NCBI GenBank assembly: GCA_002070735.1
Contig: MWDX01000028.1
Location: forward strand, 1 to 40,629
Direction: 5' to 3'
Origin: Parcubacteria group bacterium ADurb.Bin115
Lineage (GTDB): Bacteria; Patescibacteriota; Patescibacteriia; Patescibacteriales; UBA12465
DNA: 40,629 bases
Shown: positions 3,138-39,855 of the stretch, one piece after another
Layout: every line of letters starts with the position of its first letter
Numbering within the stretch: the first letter of the stretch is position 1
Program-made: the position numbers and the translations under genes
Notes under the pieces: model-generated
What the model was told of the DNA's origin: nothing
The model's input: only the letters and a program-made list of their open reading frames with translations
Database searches by the model: none

Positions 3138-3650
3138 ATGATAAAACATAAAGAACAACGCGTCGGCGTCTTGATAGATGTCGCCAATATGTATCACTCC
3201 GCCAAAAACCTTTATGGCAGACGCGTTAACTTTAAGGAAATCTTGACTAAAGCAGTGGCCGACCGGAAATTAATCCGGGCCACTGCTTATGTTATCCGGG
3301 CAGAAAACGATGAAGAAACGACTTTCTTTGAAGCTCTTAGCCAACAAGGGTTTGAAGTGAAAATGAAAGATTTACAGATTTTTGCCGGTGGCGCTAAAAA
3401 AGCTGATTGGGATGTCGGCATCGCTATTGACGCGATTAAACTCGCCGATAAATTAGACGTCATCGTGCTGGTCTCCGGCGATGGAGATTATCTACCTTTG
3501 GTCTCATACTTACAGAACAATAAAGGCTGTCTGGTAGAGGTTATGGCTTTTAGAAAAACCTGTTCTGCTCGCTTAATTGAAGAAGTGGATGACTTTATTG
3601 ATTTGGGTTCTGATAATAAATTTCTAATTGGTAATAAATATAAAAAATAA
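3138..3650 (+). CDS. NYN-domain protein (LabA/DUF88, PIN-like)
   Basis: This is a single-domain 170-residue protein with the NYN fold signature. VGVLIDVANMYHS at residues 9-21 carries the first acidic residue. A KADWDVGIAIDAI segment lies near 88-100. A VLVSGDGDYLPLV segment near 110-122 supplies the paired aspartates. NYN domains are PIN-like and several are metal-dependent ribonucleases, so an RNA-processing role is likely but unproven. The ATG begins two bases after the rpsO stop and the gene precedes pnp, encoding an exoribonuclease. A second, longer NYN protein is encoded at 39020-39781. Confidence 0.85.
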   Translation: MIKHKEQRVGVLIDVANMYHSAKNLYGRRVNFKEILTKAVADRKLIRATAYVIRAENDEETTFFEALSQQGFEVKMKDLQIFAGGAKKADWDVGIAIDAIKLADKLDVIVLVSGDGDYLPLVSYLQNNKGCLVEVMAFRKTCSARLIEEVDDFIDLGSDNKFLIGNKYKK

Positions 3651-17108: not shown

Positions 17109-17582
17109 TTAAGGTTGTTCCGGCCTCAAATTATTGTATTCTAGCCAATATAAAGACCAGAAATTACGCCAACCATTGCTATAGACCTTTGTATCAAAAT
17201 ATAAAGAAGGGGCTTTGCTAAAAAAATTGGCTAAAAATTGCCTAAAATTACTATCAGAATTAAAGCTATCAAGAGTCGAAGCGCTTGCCATTGAACCTAA
17301 ATCTTGAGTAAACTCTTCTAAGTTTGAAACGGCTTCAGCAGCGACGACGCTATCTCTCTTATTTTCTTTTACGGTTTCCGAAGCCGAAGGAACGGCGATA
17401 TCGGCTAAACCGTTAATCATCTGCCGAGTCTTTTGCGCCGCCTTACTAAACCATAAAATTGATTGCGATCTGGTTGTCTCGGTGTTTTCATAACCACCGG
17501 TATCTTCAAACCAGACAGAAGCAAAAACCGTGAGAAAAAGGAATAATACGAGAATGATAATTTGCGAAATAATTCTTCTCAT
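17109..17582 (-). CDS. Membrane-anchored hypothetical protein
   Basis: This 157-residue protein begins with one hydrophobic segment (about residues 4-22, IISQIIILVLFLFLTVFA) after two Arg. The rest is predicted to lie outside the membrane. It has a Ser/Ala-rich middle and an aromatic C-terminus (WRNFWSLYWLEYN). I do not recognise the family, and there is no lipobox or catalytic motif. It starts just after the EndoQ-like gene and precedes recA in the same direction, so it probably shares their transcript. The C-terminal Trp/Tyr cluster is its most distinctive feature. Confidence 0.6.
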   Translation of the reverse strand: MRRIISQIIILVLFLFLTVFASVWFEDTGGYENTETTRSQSILWFSKAAQKTRQMINGLADIAVPSASETVKENKRDSVVAAEAVSNLEEFTQDLGSMASASTLDSFNSDSNFRQFLANFFSKAPSLYFDTKVYSNGWRNFWSLYWLEYNNLRPEQP

Positions 17583-21941: not shown

Positions 21942-22576
21942 CATGTTTTCACTTATTACTAAGTGCATGGACTATGCTTTCATCCTGAAACGCTTTCAGG
22001 AGGCCGACGTTTAGTCTCTACGGGGTCAACTTATGTTTGCTGCGTTTTTTAGAATAATTTATCTTTACAAACTTATTGATTAAATCCATTAATTTAGAAA
22101 AATCTTTGATATTTTTTACTAAATCTTTTTTTCTAAAAATTTCTTCTAATTTGCGATTGATAATATATTCTAATATTCCGTCTTTTCTCTTACGCAAATA
22201 GCCACAACTTAACAAGTTACAAATTTTTGGAAATTTTTTTCATCTTTGGCTGATTGAAAGAGAGCTATGTAAGAAGCAATCTGAAAGCCATAATGATAAA
22301 CGATAAGTATCATTCGGTTTCAATCTTACATAAATACTACTATCACCATCGATAAATCCTGCTAAGTAAGCTAATTGAGTTTGCATTAATTTTAACATAA
22401 GCGACTTCCCTCGATATTATCCTAACATATGACAGGTTAATTTTCTATTGCCTGTTAGGATTCCATCGATATGAGTCAGCTTTTTATGCCAATATCAATT
22501 ACTCGATATTGCCGCCGTATATGATGTCTTACCTCTGGATTCAGAGCGTTTAATAGCCAATATTATTAGCTGCTAA
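21942..22576 (-). mobile_element. Group I intron at 23S position 2593
   Basis: Joining TTCAGACCGT (ending at 22577) to CGTAAGACAGG (starting at 21941) restores the peptidyl-transferase loop sequence of E. coli around U2593. The exon ends in U and the intron ends in G, as group I introns require. Core elements are visible: AGAGACTAAAC (R, GACTA at 22012-22016) and AAAGCATAGTCC (S, 21969-21980) form P7. The intron is 635 bases and carries a LAGLIDADG reading frame upstream of R. Site 2593 is the site of the Chlamydomonas reinhardtii chloroplast intron that encodes I-CreI. Confidence 0.88.
22018..22398 (-). pseudogene. I-CreI-like LAGLIDADG endonuclease with in-frame TGA
   Basis: From ATG 22398 a 126-codon frame reads YLAGFIDGDSSIYVRLKPND at residues 11-30. 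This aligns closely with the LAGLIDADG helix and first strand of I-CreI, with the catalytic Asp kept (D19). The segment GYLRKRKDGILEYII aligns with a later I-CreI strand. The frame is broken once, by TGA at 22240-22242 (codon 53), near the I-CreI Arg52/Trp53 pair, and then continues to TAG at 22018-22020. About 30 residues fewer than I-CreI remain at the C-terminus. The single stop suggests recent inactivation of the homing enzyme. Reading TGA as an amino acid is possible but not supported by the core genes. Confidence 0.75.
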
Positions 22577-22580
22577 ACGG

Positions 22581-22633
<53 letters not shown>

Positions 22634-22643
22634 GCTTTTCCAC

Positions 22644-22676
<33 letters not shown>

Positions 22677-23163
22677 GAACCAGGTCGTCGATGTGGACTC
22701 TTGGACCTGACTAGCCTGTTATCCCCGGAGTAGCTTTTATCCGATGAGCTTCCACCATTCTATATTGAATGGTCGGATCACTAAGTTCCGCTTTCGCGAC
22801 TGCTTGACCGGTAAGTCTCGCAGTAAAGCTGGCTTATGCCTTTACACTATCTCCCGGGTTTCCATTCCGGGATAGCCAACCTTTGTAAACGCCTCCGTTA
22901 CATTTTGGGAGGCATCCGCCCCAGACAAACTACCCGCCAGAAACTGTCCCCCGCTATGCGGGGTAAGAATTAAAAATAGGCAAGGGTGGTATCTCACTGT
23001 TGCCCGAAGGCTCCCACCTATTCTGAACATACATATTCCTAATTCAATATCAAGTTGTAGTAAAGCTTCACGGGGTCTTTTCGTCCAACTGTGGTTAACG
23101 AGCATCTTTACTCGTCTTGCAATTTCACCGAGTCCTTCGCTGAGACAGTGCTCAAGTGGTTAA

Positions 23164-23206
<43 letters not shown>

Positions 23207-23944
23207 CTTCACTTACTTAATATTTCTATTAAGAATGGACTTTATCTTACTCGTGATATGAGTTTAATGCTTCTAAGATAAACGGCGCTGATTCTTTATT
23301 CTGCCTGTTCATTCTTGAAGCGATAGTGATGATATGTTTGATGCCTTCAATGGTCAAATGTTGACCGGAATTCATCAACTTTATAATCTCCTTAAACTTG
23401 AAATAATCAAATTTCTTTTGAGTTAGGAGCGGATATTTATCGAAGTGGGGGATGACATATCTGTTTATATGGTCTAACGATCTTATTCGAAGTTCCTGAC
23501 GCGTGTCATGATTTACTCTGACGACGCCAGCTCCGAAATAAGTCTTAAGCGCATATAACACTTTGATATCTTTCTCATGTTGGACAACTCTGAATTCCGG
23601 TAATACTTGAAAACCAGATTTCATCGAATCGTTATGATTAATGCCAACATAAAATGTACCCTCACCATCAACAAATCCGCTAACCCAATAGGGATTCACC
23701 TTCATATTTTAGAGTCTCAGTTTTTAAGTCTCTGAGGATTATTAATCCTGCGCGTTTGCCCCGTGTATCAAGAGATTTTTACTGGAGTAGACACCCCGAG
23801 TACTTTTGATCTTTTGAGGATTTTCACGCATTTTACTGAGTATTTTAGACAACCATGGCTTTCGCCATAGCTAGGCAACGAACTTTGTTATTTATCAATT
23901 TATAATCGTCCCAGTCTTTTGCGGTCTATATGATAAACCGCAAA
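23207..23944 (-). mobile_element. Group I intron at 23S position 1931
   Basis: The exon sequence CTATAATCGTCCTAAGGT (ending at 23945) joins AGCGAAATTCCTTGTC (starting at 23206). This recreates the universally conserved E. coli 1910-1945 region with insertion after U1931. The exon ends in U and the intron ends in G. AGAGACTTAAA (R, GACTT at 23726-23730) and AAGATAAAGTCC (S, 23237-23248) pair as P7. The 738-base intron holds a LAGLIDADG gene between R and S. Group I introns at 1931 are known from Thermotoga 23S rRNA, and the overlapping I-CeuI site at 1923 is a homing hotspot. Confidence 0.9.
23247..23705 (-). CDS. LAGLIDADG homing endonuclease
   Basis: This intact 152-residue single-motif LAGLIDADG protein has WVSGFVDGEGTFYVGIN at residues 8-24 and the ALKTYFGAGVVRV and YPLLTQKKFDYFKFKEII segments usual in this family. 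Single-motif members work as homodimers that cut the intronless 23S gene at the insertion site. The ATG begins 21 bases after the intron R element. The TAA stop overlaps the S element by two bases, so the coding sequence fills the P8 region of the intron. It may also help splicing as a maturase, which cannot be read from sequence. Confidence 0.92.
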   Translation of the reverse strand: MKVNPYWVSGFVDGEGTFYVGINHNDSMKSGFQVLPEFRVVQHEKDIKVLYALKTYFGAGVVRVNHDTRQELRIRSLDHINRYVIPHFDKYPLLTQKKFDYFKFKEIIKLMNSGQHLTIEGIKHIITIASRMNRQNKESAPFILEALNSYHE

Positions 23945-26164
23945 ACCTTAGGACGATTATAGTTATCGCCGGCGTTCATCCGCGCTTGGATTCAAAGCTT
24001 TGCCCCGAAGGGCTAACCTCTCCTCTTAACGTTCGGACACTGGCCAGGCCTCACCCTCTATACATCCTCTTGCGAGTTAGCAGAGAGCTGTGTTTTTGAT
24101 AAACAGTCCCTTGAGCTCTTTAGCTGCGGCCCTGCTTGCGCAGGGCAGGCCTTATCTCGAAATTACGGCCGCTGTTTTGCCGAGTTCCTTAGCGAAGGTT
24201 CTCTCGTACACCTTAGGCTTCTCGCCTCATCTACCTGTGTCGGTTTACGGTACGGATACTGTGCCCTTAGCCCTAGAAGTTTTTCTCGTCGGCTCTGCCA
24301 CTTGAATTGACTCCATCTTGCGACTTCATCTTCTGGCTGTTTCTTGAAGCTGTTGGCCCGGATTTGCCTAGGCCGCCTCTTGAAACCCCCAACGGACATA
24401 CCAGTGCCCGCTCAAACTTTAGAACCGCGTCCCTCCTTCGGAAAAACACAGTAGTGCTGGAATATTAACCAGCTCTTCCATCGGTTATTCTAACACTACA
24501 TTAGATACACCTTAGGATCGACTAACCCTGGGTCGATTCTCGTTGCCCAGGAAACCTTAGATTTTCGGTGGGCGGGATTTTAACCCGCCTTTCTGCTACT
24601 CATGCCAACATTCTCACTTCTCTCCGCTCCACCATGCCTCACGACACGACTTCAACGCTGAAGAGAATGCTCCTCTACCACTCTACGATAAATCATAGAG
24701 TCCACATCTTCGGTAATATGCTTAGCCCCGGTAAATTTTCGGCGCGAAACAACTTGATTAGTGAGCTATTACGCTATCTTTAAAGGATGGCTGCTTCTAA
24801 GCCAACCTCCTAATTGTCGCGGTCACAACACCACCTTTTACACTTAGCTTATATTTAGGGACCTTAGATTGTGGTCTGGGCTGTTTCCCTTTTGACCGAT
24901 GAACCTTAGCGCCCATGGTCTGACTCCCGAGCTGCACCTACGGGTATTCGGAGTTTGATTGAAGACGGTATCTTGCGACCCGCCCTCATCCAGTGCTCTA
25001 CCCCCCGCAGTCAGCACTCGAGGCTAGTCCAAAAACTATTTCGAGGAGAACCAGCTATTGCCGAGTTCGATTACAATTTCTGCGCTAACCACCTCTCATC
25101 CCCGAGTGTTGCACGGCTCGTGGGTTCGGTCCTTCCTCTGCCTTTCGACAGAGTTCAACCTGGACATGGTTAGATCACCCGGCTTCGGGTCTTGTCCATG
25201 CGACGTGTACTTCACTTTAACGCACTAATTGCTTAATGCGTAAAAGTGAAGTGCAATGCGGGCTATTAACCCTCGCTTTCACTACACATACTCTCCGGAG
25301 GAGATTATGTAAGCCACATAGAACAAACTCGTTGGCTCATTCTTCAATAGGCACGCCGTCACCGCGCAAGCGCGGCTCCGACTCTTTGTAAGTATATGGT
25401 TTCAGGTACTATTTCACCTCCCTCTCGGGATGCTTTTCACCTTTCCCTCACGGTACTGGTTCACTATCGATCATAAGAAATATTTAGCCTTGGGTCATAG
25501 TCGACCCGGATTCATACGGGATTTCACGAGTCCCGCACTACTTAAGAATAAGCACGACAGAGAAATAATCCTTTTCGCTTACGGGGCTATCACCCACTCT
25601 GGCTGAGTTTTCCAACTCGCTTCTGCTAAAGATTATTTTTTATGACTCTGCTCTGTTCAATCTAGAGAACAGACATGCTGTCTTGCAACCCCTGCGGAAC
25701 ATATAGTTCTAGAACCTTCTGATTTCTCCCCAGCAAGCTGGATCAAAACCGCAGTTCGGCAGGTTTAGGCTCCTCCCCGTTCGCTCGCCACTACTAAGGG
25801 AATGACTTTTGTTTTCTTTTCCTCCGGCTACTAAGATGTTTCAGTTTGCCGGGTCTTCCAGCGCCACCAAACGGCAGCGCTTACTCCGTCAACAACGGAG
25901 TGGGTTTCCCCATTCGGAGATCTGCGGGTCAAAGGTTGCTTGCCACCTCACCGCAGCTTATCGCAGGCTGCTACGTCCTTCTTCGTTTTCTTATGTCTAG
26001 GCATCCGCCATACACTCTTTACGAGATTTTCCCACACTTTTGTTTTCAAAAGTGGACGCGTTCCTTCGCGAACGCGATTTTTTAATTTACCGCCCGGAAA
26101 TTGCAAATAAACCGACGGTAAACGGTTCGCTTTTTTGTTAAAAAACGACAAAAAAATATTTAAC

Positions 26165-32531: not shown

Positions 32532-33245
32532 TTATTTGGCTTCGTTCATTTGCTCCAACTGCTGATTCAAATCGGTAATCGCTCTTTCGTAATAACGATC
32601 GTCATGTTCTCCCCAAATAGCTTGTTTAATATTAGCAACATCCCCTTCGGCTTGAGAATTTTCAGATAAAAACTTATCTAAAGCTTTACGGGCGACTGCC
32701 TCAGCGTTAGGGTTAGTAAATTCCCCCATACCACCGTGAATAAGATAATTTTTAATGGCTTTAATCTCCACGTCTCCCAATTCGGGTTCCTTGTTAAAAT
32801 TTTTCCAAGTTTTTAAATTAAAAAGTTTAAATCCATTATCACCTTTTTTTTCAGCTAATTTAATCATTTCTAAAACTTTACCTATACCGGGAAACTTATT
32901 TTCTAATTCGGCCACACTTTCGGCGCTACCACCAAAAGACCCTAAATCAGTATCAGCGCTAGAAATAGTAGTAAAGCTTTGCCAAGCTTTATTCTTCATT
33001 TCATACTCCGCCTGCAATCTTTTAATTTCCATCTTAATCTCCTCCGGGGATTTAGATTCTTTAATTTCTTCAGAAACGGCCGCTATTTTTTCAGGAGTCC
33101 TACTTTCAGAGAGGTGCGCCTCCGCCAAAGCTTCGTGCAAATCTTTATTTTGCTGACCGAGCTCCTCTTCATTTGATGGCGTAGCCATCGCCTCAGTTTC
33201 ATTTGATAAATTTTCAGGCTGGCCCGTCATGGTTTCCATACTCAT
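32532..33245 (-). CDS. Hypothetical acidic protein with coiled coil
   Basis: This 237-residue cytoplasmic protein has no signal peptide, membrane segment or recognised domain. Residues 1-70 are acidic and low-complexity (Glu, Ser, Thr, Gln). Residues 65-90 are likely coiled coil (PEEIKMEIKRLQAEYEMKNK). The rest is mixed charged and includes a LFNLKTWKNFNKEPEL segment and a final DLNQQLEQMNEAK helix. It has a consensus promoter of its own and may be transcribed together with the S1-domain gene. I cannot assign a function. Confidence 0.7.
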   Translation of the reverse strand: MSMETMTGQPENLSNETEAMATPSNEEELGQQNKDLHEALAEAHLSESRTPEKIAAVSEEIKESKSPEEIKMEIKRLQAEYEMKNKAWQSFTTISSADTDLGSFGGSAESVAELENKFPGIGKVLEMIKLAEKKGDNGFKLFNLKTWKNFNKEPELGDVEIKAIKNYLIHGGMGEFTNPNAEAVARKALDKFLSENSQAEGDVANIKQAIWGEHDDRYYERAITDLNQQLEQMNEAK

Positions 33246-33332: not shown

Positions 33333-35144
33333 TTACACCTTAATCACTACCGGTAAAACCATAGGTCGGCGTTTTGTTTGGGCAAATAAAAATTGACTAA
33401 CATCGTTTCTAATTTTATTTTTAATAAAATCATCATCTGCTGGCGTCATTGGATTTTTGTCTTTAACAATCTTCTTGACCCTCATTCTGGTTTTTTCAAT
33501 TAAATCCCGACTTTCCTTCATATAAATAAAACCGCGCGAAATAATATCAGGATTACCGATAATATTACCGGTCTTAGCGTCAATCGTGGCAATAATCACA
33601 ATCATACCGTCACCGGCCATCATTAGACGATCACGCAAGACAACTTCCGATACATCACCGACACCAAGACCATCAACCATGACATAATCAGACGGAACCC
33701 TTTCTTTGGTCAGCTGACCAACTGAATGTCCGCGGCCGTCTTTTTGAAACAAAACTACTTGACCATTATCAGCCACAAATATTTTATCCGAAGGAATACC
33801 CACCTGTTCTGCTAATTCTGCGTGTGCCCTCAACATATAGTGATTAGCTTCAATGGGCATAAAATATTCAGGTTTAATAAGACGCATTATTAATTTTAAA
33901 TCTTCCGCTTTGGCGTGTCCGCCAGCATGAATATCAAGCATCCGATAATGAATAATGTGCGCGCCTTGACGAACAACCATATCCATCAAGTTCTGGATTG
34001 AGCGTTCATTCCCAGGAATAACCGAAGAAGAAAACAGGACAGTGTCTCCTTGTTTTAAACTAACAACGCGGTGTTCACCATTTACCACCCGGCTTAAAAA
34101 AGCACTGTCCTCCCCTTGGGCACCGGTGCCGATGATTAAAACTTGATTATCCGGCAAACGGTTTAATTCATTGTCATTAATTAAAATTTTCGGATCAAAC
34201 TTTAAATAACCTATTTGATGGGCAATTTCGACATTAGAATTCATGCTTCTCCCCTGCAAACTAACCCGACGACCGTAGCGTTTAGCCAAATCTAATATTT
34301 TCTGCACACGGCTAATTTGAGAAGCAAAAGTGCCGATAATAATACGACCGTTAATTTTTTCAATCAATTTGCCGATTTCTTCACCGATGGCCGATTCAGA
34401 AAGCTGATAACCAGCATGAGTAGCATCGGTCGAGTCAGACATCAACATTAAAATACCGCGATTGCCAATTTGAGCGATGCGCTGTAAATCTGCGGGCTTG
34501 TCATTTACCGGGGTAAAATCAATTTTAAAGTCGCCGGTATGCATAATAGTGCCTAAAGGCGTATTAACAATCACAGCAAAACAATCAGGAATAGAATGGT
34601 TGACGCGGGTAAATTCCAAACGGAAAGAGGCGCCGAGCTGAATCACCGAATTGTCGTCAATTTCTTTAATTTTTAACTGAGGTGCAGTTTTATATTCTTG
34701 ATGGCGCTTACGAATCAAACCGGCCGTCAATTTACCGGTAAACATCGGCGGATTACCAATCTCCCCCATAATATGAGGAATTCCACCAATATGATCATAA
34801 TGGCCATGAGTAATAATTACGCCTTTTATCCAATCAAGTTTATCGCGCAAGTAGGAGACATTGGGAATAATATAATCGATGCCGGGCATATCCTCTTCCG
34901 GAAATTGTAGGCCCATATCGATAATAATAATCTCACGGTTGCATTCAATCAGAGTCATGTTTCGTCCAACCTCTTCCAGTCCGCCCAGAACAATAACTTT
35001 AACATAGTCGCCAGAGTTATTCTGACGAAAAACTTGACGCGAACGAACAGGAAATCGGCGCCTTGGCGACAAATCTGTTTTCAAGGGCGCCTTAGCGACA
35101 TTATCTTTGCCGGTAGTAATTCCGGACTTATAACGAGTAATCAT
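33333..35144 (-). CDS. rnj: Ribonuclease J
   Basis: This 603-residue metallo-beta-lactamase/beta-CASP ribonuclease starts with an approximately 45-residue basic extension. The core follows: VIVLGGLEEVGRNMTLIE, HGHYDH at 113-118, MHTGDFKIDFTPV, the SDSTDATHAGYQLSE segment, beta-CASP motifs (GTFASQISR, GTGAQGEDSAFLSR, HAGGHAKAEDLKL) and the RNase J C-terminal domain. It combines endonuclease and 5'-3' exonuclease activity and acts with RNase Y in mRNA decay and rRNA maturation. Length and motifs are complete. Confidence 0.96.
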   Translation of the reverse strand: MITRYKSGITTGKDNVAKAPLKTDLSPRRRFPVRSRQVFRQNNSGDYVKVIVLGGLEEVGRNMTLIECNREIIIIDMGLQFPEEDMPGIDYIIPNVSYLRDKLDWIKGVIITHGHYDHIGGIPHIMGEIGNPPMFTGKLTAGLIRKRHQEYKTAPQLKIKEIDDNSVIQLGASFRLEFTRVNHSIPDCFAVIVNTPLGTIMHTGDFKIDFTPVNDKPADLQRIAQIGNRGILMLMSDSTDATHAGYQLSESAIGEEIGKLIEKINGRIIIGTFASQISRVQKILDLAKRYGRRVSLQGRSMNSNVEIAHQIGYLKFDPKILINDNELNRLPDNQVLIIGTGAQGEDSAFLSRVVNGEHRVVSLKQGDTVLFSSSVIPGNERSIQNLMDMVVRQGAHIIHYRMLDIHAGGHAKAEDLKLIMRLIKPEYFMPIEANHYMLRAHAELAEQVGIPSDKIFVADNGQVVLFQKDGRGHSVGQLTKERVPSDYVMVDGLGVGDVSEVVLRDRLMMAGDGMIVIIATIDAKTGNIIGNPDIISRGFIYMKESRDLIEKTRMRVKKIVKDKNPMTPADDDFIKNKIRNDVSQFLFAQTKRRPMVLPVVIKV

Positions 35145-35266: not shown

Positions 35267-37228
35267 TTACCAAGAAAGATGCTTCTTGGTTTTTAAATAC
35301 CAATGGCTAAAACCAGCAAAACGATCACACGGTTCATTAATAGCCGTTCCGTTAAAACCGTGAACTTTCTTGGACTGAACATAAGTATATCGGGGAGAAT
35401 ATAAGAAAATAACCGGCAAATCCTTACTGATAATTTCTTGAAATTTTTTATACTTAGAAAAACGTAAATTAATATTATCAGCTGTCTGTCTCGCTTCAAT
35501 TAAAAGCGTATCGACTTCGGCATTATTATAACCGGAAAGATTCAAGCCCTGACCGCCAATTTGTGAAGAATGCCAAAAAGGAGCAACATCAGGCTCCGTG
35601 CCGACAACTTGTCCATACAATAAAGCTTCAAAATTATGACCAGCAATTATTTCTGCGTTTAAGCTGGCAAGCGCTACCGGCACAATAATTGTTTTGACGC
35701 CGATTAATTCCCAGTCTTTCTTTAAACTCTCAGCCACATCCATCCTACCATTCTCAGGCACTGATAATTTCAAAGCTAAAACTTGATATTCTTTGTCTTT
35801 AAGGGCGACGCGCCAATAACCGGTGGCAGCAATTTGAGTGGAACTAGCATAGGCAATAATGGCTGATAATTCTGGGCTATGCTCGGGATTGTCAATCATA
35901 TCTTGACTAACATCTACTCGCTTAAATCCGCTTTCATCTAAAAGCTGCTCGGCTTTATCTTTATCTAAATTATAAAAAGAACCGTCCGGAGTATAGGAAA
36001 AATCAGGAGAGATAATAGGGCCGTCGGCACGACTGGCGGATTCGCCCAAAACTTCATTAAATAAGTAATCGCGATCAATAGCAAAAGCCAACGCCTGACG
36101 TATTTTAATATCGCCTAAAAATTTATTCTTCTCTTGATTGAAAAAAATAGAATTTATTTGAGGCAAGCGCAAACTATGCATCACCAAAGAATGCTTAGCT
36201 AATAAATCTTTTTTTAAATCATCAGGAATATAACTGGCGGCATCAACCTCATTACCGTTTAAAGCGCGCACCAATTCCACATAATCAGGAAAAAATTTAA
36301 AGATAATCTCCTTGATATAAGGTTTAGGCCCATAATAGTCATCATTAGCGATCAGATGATATTCTTTAATTTCCCCCCCCTTGCTCTTAATTAAAGATTC
36401 AAATTTATAAGGACCGGAACCAATCGGTTTGAGATTTAATTCTGATAAAGAAGCGGTCTCAGGAGAAATATTTTCCCAAATGTTTGCCGGCATGATGCCG
36501 AAAGTTAAAAGACTTAAGAAATCAGCATAAGGCTCGCTGAGAGAAAATTTGACCGAATGATCGTCAATTCTTTCTATCTCTACGCCATTCAGGCTGGCGC
36601 GCAAGGAAGAACGAAATTCTGGGTTTTTAATCAAGTTAAAAGTAAAGATAACATCGTCAATCTTTAAATCTTCACCGTTATGCCACTTCACTCCTTCACG
36701 TAGAGAAATAATATAAGATTTCCCGCCGTCTTCAATTTTCCAAGTAGACGCTAAATTCGGCATTAAACGGCCATTTTCATCATAATCAAACAAACGAGAA
36801 TATATTAAGCGAGATAAATCGGCATCAACATCACGGCTACTAGAATAAAGGGGATTGATGGATTGAGGATAACCAACTAAGCCTTCAATATAAGTGCCGC
36901 CACTAGCAGGTATTAAAATAAGGTGTTTTTGATAAAAAGAAAAGCCTAAATAGAAAACACTGACTAAAAAAACGAGAAAAGCCAACTTAAGAATAATTTT
37001 TTCTTTGGGGTTTAAAATTTTAAAAAGATGTCTTAACTGTTCACGTCTGGGAATCTTGGTTGGCGCTAAGGAATAAACCAGATTTCTATCACTTTCTGTC
37101 TGCGCTTTTTTTTTCCCTTTAGTTGAAAATTTCTCCTTAATAAAATCTTTAACATTAACAAAAAAATGGGAAAAATTTTTTTTCTTTCTGGAAAAAAAAC
37201 TATTTATTTTTTGAGAAAATTGATCCAC
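35267..37228 (-). CDS. Family 5 solute-binding protein with cytoplasmic extension
   Basis: This 653-residue protein starts with about 78 mostly basic residues (FFSRKKKNF, then KGKKKAQ), then one membrane helix (about 79-99, ILKLAFLVFLVSVFYLGF). The rest is a family 5 extracellular binding domain: GLVGYPQSINPLYSSSRDVD, LREGVKWHNGEDLKIDDVIF, KPIGSGPYKFE and IRQALAFAIDRDYL. Family members capture peptides, nickel or sugars for ABC importers. There is no lipobox and no permease or ATPase gene nearby. The position after rplT-secG is unusual for a transporter part. The start is GTG 37228, with no nearby alternative. The C-terminal lobe is complete by length. Confidence 0.87.
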   Translation of the reverse strand: MDQFSQKINSFFSRKKKNFSHFFVNVKDFIKEKFSTKGKKKAQTESDRNLVYSLAPTKIPRREQLRHLFKILNPKEKIILKLAFLVFLVSVFYLGFSFYQKHLILIPASGGTYIEGLVGYPQSINPLYSSSRDVDADLSRLIYSRLFDYDENGRLMPNLASTWKIEDGGKSYIISLREGVKWHNGEDLKIDDVIFTFNLIKNPEFRSSLRASLNGVEIERIDDHSVKFSLSEPYADFLSLLTFGIMPANIWENISPETASLSELNLKPIGSGPYKFESLIKSKGGEIKEYHLIANDDYYGPKPYIKEIIFKFFPDYVELVRALNGNEVDAASYIPDDLKKDLLAKHSLVMHSLRLPQINSIFFNQEKNKFLGDIKIRQALAFAIDRDYLFNEVLGESASRADGPIISPDFSYTPDGSFYNLDKDKAEQLLDESGFKRVDVSQDMIDNPEHSPELSAIIAYASSTQIAATGYWRVALKDKEYQVLALKLSVPENGRMDVAESLKKDWELIGVKTIIVPVALASLNAEIIAGHNFEALLYGQVVGTEPDVAPFWHSSQIGGQGLNLSGYNNAEVDTLLIEARQTADNINLRFSKYKKFQEIISKDLPVIFLYSPRYTYVQSKKVHGFNGTAINEPCDRFAGFSHWYLKTKKHLSW

Positions 37229-37267: not shown

Positions 37268-37480
37268 TTAGAGCAAAACACTAACCAAAGACAAGCCGAA
37301 GAAAAGCACCGCCAAGACAATGGTGGCGATGAATAATTTTTTTTCAAGACCGCGTTTCGTCAAATAAACGCCGCCGGTACCACCAAAAGCACTGCCAAGA
37401 CCAGCGCCGCGGTTTTGAAGGAGAACGACGATGATAAGAAGAATGGAAACAATAATCTGAGCAATTTGAATCAAAGACAT
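37268..37480 (-). CDS. secG: Preprotein translocase subunit SecG
   Basis: This 70-residue protein has two hydrophobic helices (about 4-19 and 52-68) joined by the conserved QNRGAGLGSAFGGTGG loop, the SecG signature. It assists SecYE in protein export. It begins four bases after the rplT stop and is followed at once by the binding protein gene. Confidence 0.92.
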   Translation of the reverse strand: MSLIQIAQIIVSILLIIVVLLQNRGAGLGSAFGGTGGVYLTKRGLEKKLFIATIVLAVLFFGLSLVSVLL

Positions 37481-37484
37481 AAGC

Positions 37485-37832
37485 TTATTTCTTAAGCTGA
37501 GACAACAAGGCCGCTAAAACTTTCTTATTATTAATAGCCAAATCAGCTAAAATTTTCCGATCAACCACAATCTTGGCCGCTTTTAAAGCGCCCATTAATT
37601 TTGAATAAGAAAAATTATACTCGCGCACAAAAGCATTAATTTGCACTTGCCATAAAGCCCGCCGATCGCGTTTTTTCTTGCGACGATCACGGTAAGCGTG
37701 AGCACCGGCTTTAGTACGAGCAGTTTTGGCTAATTTAATTAGATTTTTGCGACCCCACCGATAGCCTTTAACTTGCTTTAACAGTGTGCGGCGTTTTTTA
37801 TTGTGGCCAACTCCTCTTTTTACTCTGGGCAT
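37485..37832 (-). CDS. rplT: 50S ribosomal protein L20
   Basis: This 115-residue protein has the L20 pattern: MPRVKRGVGHNKKRRTLLKQ, KGYRWGRKNLIKLAKTA, YRDRRKKKRDRRALWQVQIN and AFVREYNFSYSKLMGAL. L20 binds 23S rRNA early in 50S assembly and in many bacteria represses the infC-rpmI-rplT operon. The gene order here is the classical one. Confidence 0.96.
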   Translation of the reverse strand: MPRVKRGVGHNKKRRTLLKQVKGYRWGRKNLIKLAKTARTKAGAHAYRDRRKKKRDRRALWQVQINAFVREYNFSYSKLMGALKAAKIVVDRKILADLAINNKKVLAALLSQLKK

Positions 37833-37858: not shown

Positions 37859-38056
37859 CTATCGATACGGGGTTAAGGTTTTAATGATTTTTACTAAAGT
37901 CTTGTCCGCGTTAATATCTAAACGCTTAGCGCGCTTGGTATTGCCTGTTTCGCGAGAATTAAAATGATCCTGACCGGATTTTCTTTTCTTTAATTTATTA
38001 GCGGCAGTTAAGCGAAAACGCTTAGCGGTTGCTCGGTGAGTCTTTATTTTCGGCAT
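37859..38056 (-). CDS. rpmI: 50S ribosomal protein L35
   Basis: This 65-residue basic protein has MPKIKTHRATAKRFRLTAANKLKKRKSG-type sequence and the HFNSRETGNTKRAKR segment of L35. It is second in infC-rpmI-rplT and ends in TAG. The 47-base spacer before it carries a terminator-like hairpin. Confidence 0.95.
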   Translation of the reverse strand: MPKIKTHRATAKRFRLTAANKLKKRKSGQDHFNSRETGNTKRAKRLDINADKTLVKIIKTLTPYR

Positions 38057-38103: not shown

Positions 38104-38658
38104 TTATTTCTTATTTATTAACACTATAGTAAATCTTCCACCTTGATTTGTCAAGGCTTGTTCTATTTCAATTGATAAATTTTCTTTTTGTCTAAGTTTA
38201 GCCACAAAATTATCCACAATTTCTCTAGCTTTCTGCGGATACTGACGTTCACGACCTCTTAATATCAACTCAACTTTTAATTTATTGTCTTTTTCTAAAA
38301 ATTTTTCTGCTTGCGTGAGACGAAAATTAAAGTCATGTTCACTAATACGGAAAGACAGTCTAATCACCTTGGTGTCTACTTTTTTTTGCATGACCTTCTG
38401 GCGGTGAAGTTTCTTTTCGTGTTCATATTTTAGTTGTCCCAAATCTGCAATCTTAGCCACCGGCGGCTCAGCCTTAGGGTTTACCTCAACTAAATCCAAA
38501 TCCAATTCCTTCGCTCTCGCAATAGCCTCTTGAGTATCAATAACGCCAAAATTTTCACCATTTTCATCAATTAAAAAAACTTGTTCCGAGCGAATCTGGG
38601 AATTGGCTTTAAAAAATTTCTTTTCTTTCTGTTCAACGCGATGAAATTTAATGCGCAT
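38104..38658 (-). CDS. infC: Translation initiation factor IF-3
   Basis: From ATG 38658 the product has 184 residues: FKANSQIRSEQVFLIDENGE, LDLVEVNPKAEPPVAKIADL, the linker, then the C-terminal domain with VIRLSFRISEHDFNFRL and VELILRGRERQYPQKARE. IF-3 prevents early subunit joining and checks initiator tRNA. The start is fixed by the promoter, whose -10 is at 38687-38692. A longer frame from 38715 would begin at the -35. The start codon is ATG, not the rare AUU of enterobacterial infC. Confidence 0.95.
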   Translation of the reverse strand: MRIKFHRVEQKEKKFFKANSQIRSEQVFLIDENGENFGVIDTQEAIARAKELDLDLVEVNPKAEPPVAKIADLGQLKYEHEKKLHRQKVMQKKVDTKVIRLSFRISEHDFNFRLTQAEKFLEKDNKLKVELILRGRERQYPQKAREIVDNFVAKLRQKENLSIEIEQALTNQGGRFTIVLINKK

Positions 38659-38686
38659 GGTAATATAAGTATTATTTATATAGCTA

Positions 38687-38715
38687 TTTATAGCGGAAAA
38701 ATTAAAAAAAGTCAA
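38687..38715 (-). promoter_or_regulatory. Promoter for infC-rpmI-rplT
   Basis: On the minus strand, TTGACT (38715-38710) and TATAAA (38692-38687) have a 17-base spacer, giving a leader of about 22 bases. Confidence 0.75.
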
Positions 38716-39019: not shown

Positions 39020-39781
39020 TTATAAATTTAAATATTTCTTTGAGTCTTCATACTTAATCTCTAGACTCCAGTCGGTGGCTTGATTTAATCTTTTTGCGCC
39101 GCCAGGCAATAATCTCCCAGTATTTGTCAAAAAGGATACATTAACAGTTCGTTTTCCTAAATCTTTCACCGCATCAACCGCCGGAGAATAGTCTTGGTCG
39201 CCGGAAACGATGATTGCAATGTCATAAATATCTTTTAATTTAACTAAATCTGTAGCGAGTTTTACGTCCACGGCCTTCTCGGAACCAAGCTTTTTCTCAA
39301 ATAAATCATACCGAATAGCGCCAGCACGTCTAAATTCTACTGAATTATTCTCCCTAGCTATAATATTCTGCACATTAGTCCAGCCGTCGAAACGTCGTTG
39401 CATTTCGTCCTGTCTTTCCAGAAGTTTTTCTGTAAGTTTAATTATGATATCATCCCTATCTGCGGGAACAGTTTTTTCATCAATTTGTTTTTTACAAGTA
39501 TCACATCTTGATAAAATATTTTTTAGGTAATTAAAATTATTTTTCTTTTTTGCAGAGTTTAATTGAAAGGGGTAAAAATCAATATTTTGAACTGTATACC
39601 AATAAGTACGGATACGGTCAACGTCGGGCCCCACTACCTCAGCCGCAATCCAATCAAAAAAAGATGCCCAATTTGTTTCTGGTAAATATTTACTTTTTTG
39701 AAATAATGGGAACAAGTCGCCAATAGAATGCCGCAGGTTTTCCCCATCAACGAAGATACAAACCCTTTTTCCACTTAACAT
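39020..39781 (-). CDS. NYN-domain protein, longer LabA-like form
   Basis: From ATG 39781 the product has 253 residues. The NYN core begins VCIFVDGENLRHSI (about 7-20). It ends with VDVKLATDLVKLKDIYDIAIIVSG, and DQDYSPAVDAV carries the conserved acidic residues (about 185-205). Between them is an insert of about 100 residues with a CDTC pair, possibly half of a metal site. This layout resembles DUF88 proteins such as LabA, which are predicted ribonucleases. A strong hairpin sits 12 bases upstream of the ATG. It is next to the recombinase remnant and tRNA-Gly, and may have arrived with that element, though it looks intact. Confidence 0.82.
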   Translation of the reverse strand: MLSGKRVCIFVDGENLRHSIGDLFPLFQKSKYLPETNWASFFDWIAAEVVGPDVDRIRTYWYTVQNIDFYPFQLNSAKKKNNFNYLKNILSRCDTCKKQIDEKTVPADRDDIIIKLTEKLLERQDEMQRRFDGWTNVQNIIARENNSVEFRRAGAIRYDLFEKKLGSEKAVDVKLATDLVKLKDIYDIAIIVSGDQDYSPAVDAVKDLGKRTVNVSFLTNTGRLLPGGAKRLNQATDWSLEIKYEDSKKYLNL

Positions 39782-39793
39782 ATAATTAACAAA

Positions 39794-39855
39794 CAAGAGC
39801 GGACAAAAGCCCGCCCTTGTACTATAAATACGTTATACTCTCGGACAATTCCGAG
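39794..39855 (-). promoter_or_regulatory. Two hairpins in front of the second NYN gene
   Basis: CAAGAGCGGAC (39794-39804) pairs with GCCCGCCCTTG (39809-39819) over an AAAA loop, allowing G-U pairs in the RNA. CTCGGA/TCCGAG (39840-39845 with 39850-39855) forms a second hairpin. The first ends 12 bases before the ATG and may hide the start region or be an RNA-binding target. Confidence 0.4.

Follow-up and report, generated by a model that had tools for sequence, protein, structure and literature searches.

What does a peptide-binding type of solute-binding protein do in a genome in which no peptide importer is detected, and why does its gene follow secG? The question is raised by a 40,629-nucleotide contig (MWDX01000028.1) of Parcubacteria group bacterium ADurb.Bin115, a member of the Patescibacteriota, which we analyzed at full length and call the window. 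The source genome is 758 kb, with an estimated completeness of 97.5%. A first-pass annotation of the window had described a solitary, peptide-type family 5 solute-binding protein (SBP5) held behind an uncleaved helix, with a basic cytoplasmic extension and no permease nearby, encoded after rplT and secG. It had proposed that the protein could serve a shared ABC importer or could have a new role near the translocon, with the basic tail contacting ribosomes or nucleic acid. The locus contains the following features.

33333..35144 (-): RNase J, downstream neighbor, partly conserved in the phylum (TIGR00649, above cut-off)
35267..37228 (-): anchored, importer-less family 5 solute-binding protein (open reading frame call, Pfam, AlphaFold2 model)
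35270..36910 (-): predicted extracytoplasmic SBP5 domain, codons 107-653 (PDB matches over model residues 108-647)
36923..37009 (-): predicted single membrane-spanning helix, codons 74-102, without lipobox (AlphaFold2 and lipobox scan)
36998..37096 (-): conserved juxtamembrane motif, codons 45-77 (column entropy 1.58 in 58 sequences)
37097..37228 (-): variable basic cytoplasmic stretch, codons 1-44 (column entropy 2.87 in 58 sequences; low pLDDT)
37268..37480 (-): secG, 70 amino acids, conserved partner gene (TIGR00810, E 2.4e-15, above cut-off)
37485..37832 (-): rplT (TIGR01032, above cut-off)
37859..38056 (-): rpmI (TIGR00001, 45.4 bits, slightly under the cut-off of 51.2)
38104..38715 (-): infC (TIGR00168, above cut-off)

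The gene order is infC-rpmI-rplT-secG-SBP-RNase J, with 39 nucleotides between the secG stop and the SBP start, and these NCBIfam gene calls agree with the placement after rplT and secG given by the first-pass annotation. An NYN-domain protein is encoded upstream of infC (39020..39796 (-), PF01936, E 6.7e-14), and a second frame looks NYN-like (3138..3650 (+)). The window also contains a 23S rRNA gene of 3546 bases (22486..26031 (-)), which very probably bears an intron because a LAGLIDADG endonuclease frame lies inside it (23247..23705 (-), PF00961, E 6.1e-28). Two window proteins (32532..33245 (-) and 17109..17582 (-)) have no Pfam match at E<=0.01.

The SBP open reading frame has a GTG start that lines up with the start codons of relatives and encodes 653 amino acids. 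Pfam places an SBP_bac_5 domain (PF00496) at residues 155-553 (E 1.5e-67); its score of 228.8 bits, against a curated cut-off of 32.4, and the SBP5 fold assign the protein to the SBP_bac_5 family. At E<=1, SBP_bac_5 is the only Pfam match along the protein, with no PPIase (rotamase) or signaling domain, and none of the NCBIfam SBP equivalogs (Opp4A, NikA, DppA and others) scores above its cut-off (best 168.5 bits versus 650). An AlphaFold2 model built from 58 sequences (mean pLDDT 89.2) has the full SBP5 fold from about residue 107 and one long helix at residues 74-102, preceded by shorter, lower-confidence helices. As modeled, the protein is a complete AppA/NikZ-like family 5 binding domain behind an uncleaved, non-lipoprotein N-terminal helix, which bears out the domain and helix of the first-pass annotation.

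The closest structural match to the model is Campylobacter jejuni NikZ (4oet; Z 35.6, rmsd 2.8, 482 aligned residues, 29% identity). CtaP (5isu; Z 34.0, rmsd 2.8, 474 aligned), AppA (1xoc; Z 32.5, rmsd 5.5, 495 aligned) and MppA are also among the structural matches. By sequence, the top PDB entry is AppA, the Bacillus subtilis oligopeptide-binding protein (1xoc, E 2.8e-72), which shares the fold and a PDxY..(F/W)HSSQ...GLN segment with the window protein. NikZ is a nickel/histidine binder that belongs to an importer, and AppA is the receptor of an ABC importer, whereas the window protein has a predicted helix anchor and cytoplasmic segment and is without permease or ATPase. A loose regular expression for a PDxY..WHS[ST]Q signature (PDQYDIFHSSQ in AppA) matched in 51 of 77 gene regions sampled across the phylum, including most compact forms of the protein. 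Because a few of these matches look like chance (e.g., L188 and L213) and 26 of the 77 regions are unmatched, the signature is widespread without being universal.

Homologues of the SBP were found in 58 of 60 relatives (search with the window protein) and, using a 30-sequence profile, in 359 of 379 sampled Patescibacteriota genomes. The latter count is a lower bound, since one genome scored as a miss (G412) encodes an anchored 487-residue frame directly behind secG that matches PF00496 (E 2.9e-11). The window's own genome encodes a single SBP_bac_5 protein. Second SBP5 paralogues that are apparently helix-anchored and do not adjoin secG occur in two genomes (L252 in G123 and L253 in G063).

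Peptide importers do not share this distribution. The type I ABC permease family PF00528 has no match at E<=1 in the window's own genome, near the SBP or elsewhere, so the claim that no permease lies nearby can be extended to the whole genome. PF00528 was identified in 10 of the 60 relatives, 54 of the 379 phylum genomes and 14 of 14 control genomes. The matching frames in the 54 phylum genomes are mostly 250-300 amino acids long. In one of the 10 positive relatives (G016), we read the permeases as sugar-type, with glycosidase-like genes on the same contig. The oligo_HPY signature of peptide-importer ATPases (PF08352) has no match in the window's own genome; it was identified in 11 of the 14 control genomes and in only one of the 379 phylum genomes, where the match is below cut-off. 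This sole match (G157) belongs to what reads as a Dpp-like operon, which encodes a lipoprotein-like SBP together with a permease and two ATPases. TolC- and RND-like genes share the contig, and the operon is therefore probably foreign or contamination; a second SBP_bac_5 gene in this genome is on another contig. The arrangement that would have refuted the earlier proposal, a separate permease operon that includes an SBP, combined with an unconserved extension, is approached only in this genome.

A Dpp/Opp/Nik-type receptor would be expected to come with a cognate BPD_transp_1 permease and an oligo_HPY ATPase, and neither was found in the window's own genome. Such a receptor would also be a lipoprotein or a cleaved, secreted protein, whereas the window protein has no lipobox and a predicted helix (residues 74-102) that follows about 73 cytoplasmic residues. 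A lipobox scan of the first 130 residues of 187 homologous frames gave seven chance matches, all of them falling within the hydrophobic segment or where it begins. With the importer missing, the SBP does not serve a Dpp/Opp-type importer as its receptor, despite such a reading in published work. We thus rejected the shared Dpp/Opp importer of the first-pass annotation on the PF00528 searches (own genome, 60 relatives and 379 phylum genomes) and the PF08352 search (379 genomes), while its term 'solitary' holds phylum-wide (PF08352 in 1 and PF00528 in 54, versus the SBP in 359, of 379 genomes).

The SBP is instead associated with secG. We compared 77 regions, one per genome, which were hand-picked for diversity among genomes with profile matches and represent 71 families (hand count). 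Three loci were left out before counting (L251, which has no SBP, and the second, non-secG paralogues L252 and L253). The secG gene is directly upstream of the SBP, on the same strand, in 75 of the 77 regions. Both exceptions belong to one family (f73, two of two looked at), in which secG is followed by a frame that by eye resembles MurA and the SBP is elsewhere. Two further locus sets, which partly overlap each other and the first, gave similar counts: secG is upstream in 74 of 76 usable named loci (four of the 80 lie at contig edges and were left out; in one of the misses, L143, secG is masked by N) and in 27 of 28 further loci, partly from the same genomes (in the miss, G042, secG is on the same contig, about 33 kb from the SBP). 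Compact forms of the SBP (L237-L244, 448-476 residues) also lie directly behind secG.

Other neighbors are kept less often. Clustering of neighbors across the 77 regions gave uvrC in 40, a PF04020-type small membrane protein in 39 and RNase J in 23; in 18 of 75 regions, RNase J lies no more than 1.5 kb downstream. The PF04020-type gene is located just upstream of secG (L177-L256), and the ancestral order was probably uvrC-PF04020-secG-SBP. The rplT gene is upstream in 63 of 75 named loci, which have the infC-rpmI-rplT context of the window's order, and within 1.5 kb in none of 76 phylum-wide regions. The ribosomal operon of the first-pass annotation is thus a feature of the window's lineage and not of the family: what is conserved is the linkage to secG rather than that to rplT, and the secG-SBP pair stays together across different operons (uvrC-PF04020 and infC-rpmI-rplT). 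Although neighbors are partly conserved in general, the secG pair is well above that level (75 versus at most 40 of 77), which makes pure gene-order inertia a weaker explanation of the pairing. Across the phylum, an SBP5 with a predicted membrane anchor and no importer is thus conserved and paired with secG, a pattern wider than the single locus first noted.

SecG was identified in 11 of the 20 genomes without an SBP match (10 above cut-off), and SecDF in 163 of 192 genomes. Since SecDF is common, there is no absent translocon part that needs replacement, and we rejected the SBP as a substitute for a missing SecDF.

The N-terminal extension was aligned for 58 sequences (the window protein and 57 of the 80 named loci). 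The segment that precedes the helix spans 42-107 residues with a net charge of +4 to +23, and in the window protein it contains 20 K/R and 7 D/E residues (counted by hand). The basic extension of the first-pass annotation is present and can be refined into two parts. Residues 45-77 are as conserved as the binding domain (column entropy 1.58 versus 1.69) and follow the pattern D-K-x-LVYSL...KIP...Q-L-K...L...E, with P60, Q64 and E76 invariant in 58 of 58 sequences. Residues 1-44 are variable. Conservation thus holds across the order for the juxtamembrane part and fails for the first 44 residues; in the wider phylum the specific motif fades and only the basic stretch and single helix are kept, in most homologues, some of which have very short cytoplasmic segments. 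Membrane topology alone (the positive-inside rule) would account for a positive charge of variable extent. The conserved juxtamembrane motif, as judged from the alignment, is the part of the extension that suggests a protein partner.

We found no paper in the open PMC literature that describes the secG-SBP pair. In the available main texts, the protein is not named in the S. epibionticum Tn-seq study (PMC10633639) or in Meheust 2019 (PMC6744442). Traces of it are nonetheless present. According to the available text on Nanosynbacter lyticus TM7x (PMC10768705), secG (TM7x_02710) and a 'peptide transporter' (TM7x_02705) are both higher in the initial encounter; the neighboring locus numbers suggest that the two genes are adjacent. 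A lone SBP of Patescibacterium danicum has been interpreted as peptide uptake (PMC11809585, available text). Likened by description, these two proteins very probably belong to the same family. Both papers call their SBPs transport components, and neither the missing importer nor secG is commented on in the available portions.

Location beside the gene of an export channel suggests that the SBP works at that channel. We infer, tentatively and at somewhat less than even probability, that the protein is best explained as a factor of PpiD-like layout that docks at the Sec translocon and binds peptides or chains on the extracytoplasmic side. PpiD and PrsA are membrane-attached foldases at the translocon side, close to SecYEG. 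The window protein would share their layout of a membrane-attached extracytoplasmic client binder; it differs in having SBP_bac_5 alone where they have a PPIase domain, and its Sec contact is proposed by analogy. It would represent a family of anchored SBP5 proteins that is near-universal in Patescibacteria, has ceased to serve an ABC importer and is made together with SecG. The helix and conserved cytoplasmic juxtamembrane segment would keep it beside SecYEG, with the two-lobed peptide cleft facing the trans side. There the cleft may bind unfolded chains as they emerge, signal peptides after cleavage or peptides in the vicinity, so that the protein would serve as a capture factor or holdase in which the SBP5 cleft replaces the PPIase of PpiD.

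Several lines of evidence favor docking at the translocon. The SBP is in 359 of 379 genomes, no native-looking peptide importer accompanies it, and secG is upstream in 75 of 77 regions versus 40 for uvrC, so the translocon link proposed in the first-pass annotation appears strongly supported by gene order. The conserved cytoplasmic motif beside the helix and the AppA-like signature in 51 regions may point the same way, as may the joint rise of the two TM7x genes (PMC10768705, available text) and the chaperone activity reported for OppA, DppA and other SBPs (reviewed in PMC8144458, available text). On the other side, adjacency to secG can reflect shared expression only, and partner loss is not strict, given the SBP-less genomes that retain SecG and the family (f73) that keeps the genes apart. 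SecDF is common, and gene order around secG is partly kept in any case (uvrC 40 and PF04020-like 39 of 77).

The main rival is a nutritional receptor that passes environmental or host-cell peptides to an importer unseen by PF00528 and PF08352. The nearest sequence relatives bind peptides and nickel, many homologues keep the peptide-binding signature, and published descriptions credit such cells with peptidases and no amino acid synthesis, in keeping with the uptake reading of the danicum paper (PMC11809585, available text). We nevertheless consider this unlikely, as the importer ATPase is limited to one sub-cut-off match in 379 genomes, the window's own genome has no permease match, and the SBP is linked to secG and not to any transporter. 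An anchored peptide sensor or MppA-like binder of cell-wall peptides, with the secG adjacency a relic of an old operon, would fit the single-pass layout, the conserved cytoplasmic motif, the MppA match and the partial conservation of neighbor order in general. No other neighbor is retained nearly as often as the secG pair, and Pfam found no signaling domain, which makes this reading improbable, too. The earlier proposal, in which the basic tail would hold ribosomes or nucleic acid at the membrane close to the translocon, draws on the net charge and on the ribosomal-gene linkage in the window's order. It is very improbable and finds no support here: residues 1-44 vary, as the positive-inside rule alone predicts, the rplT linkage is absent elsewhere (0 of 76), and in some homologues the cytoplasmic segment is very short.

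Returning to the translocon-docked factor, it is possible, though somewhat less likely than not, that the phylum recruited a peptide-importer receptor as a fixed Sec accessory, an anchored SBP5 made together with SecG that binds signal peptides after cleavage, or chains as they emerge, on the exit side. Few envelope genes are as widespread as that of the anchored SBP5 in the genomes sampled from this very large, barely cultured phylum. The gene feeds the published idea of ABC peptide import in Patescibacteria, and with the importer missing that idea needs another basis. If the proposed role is true, anchored SBP5 proteins would represent a new class of translocon partner, and the secG link opens a direct and testable route to the study of secretion in these reduced epibionts.
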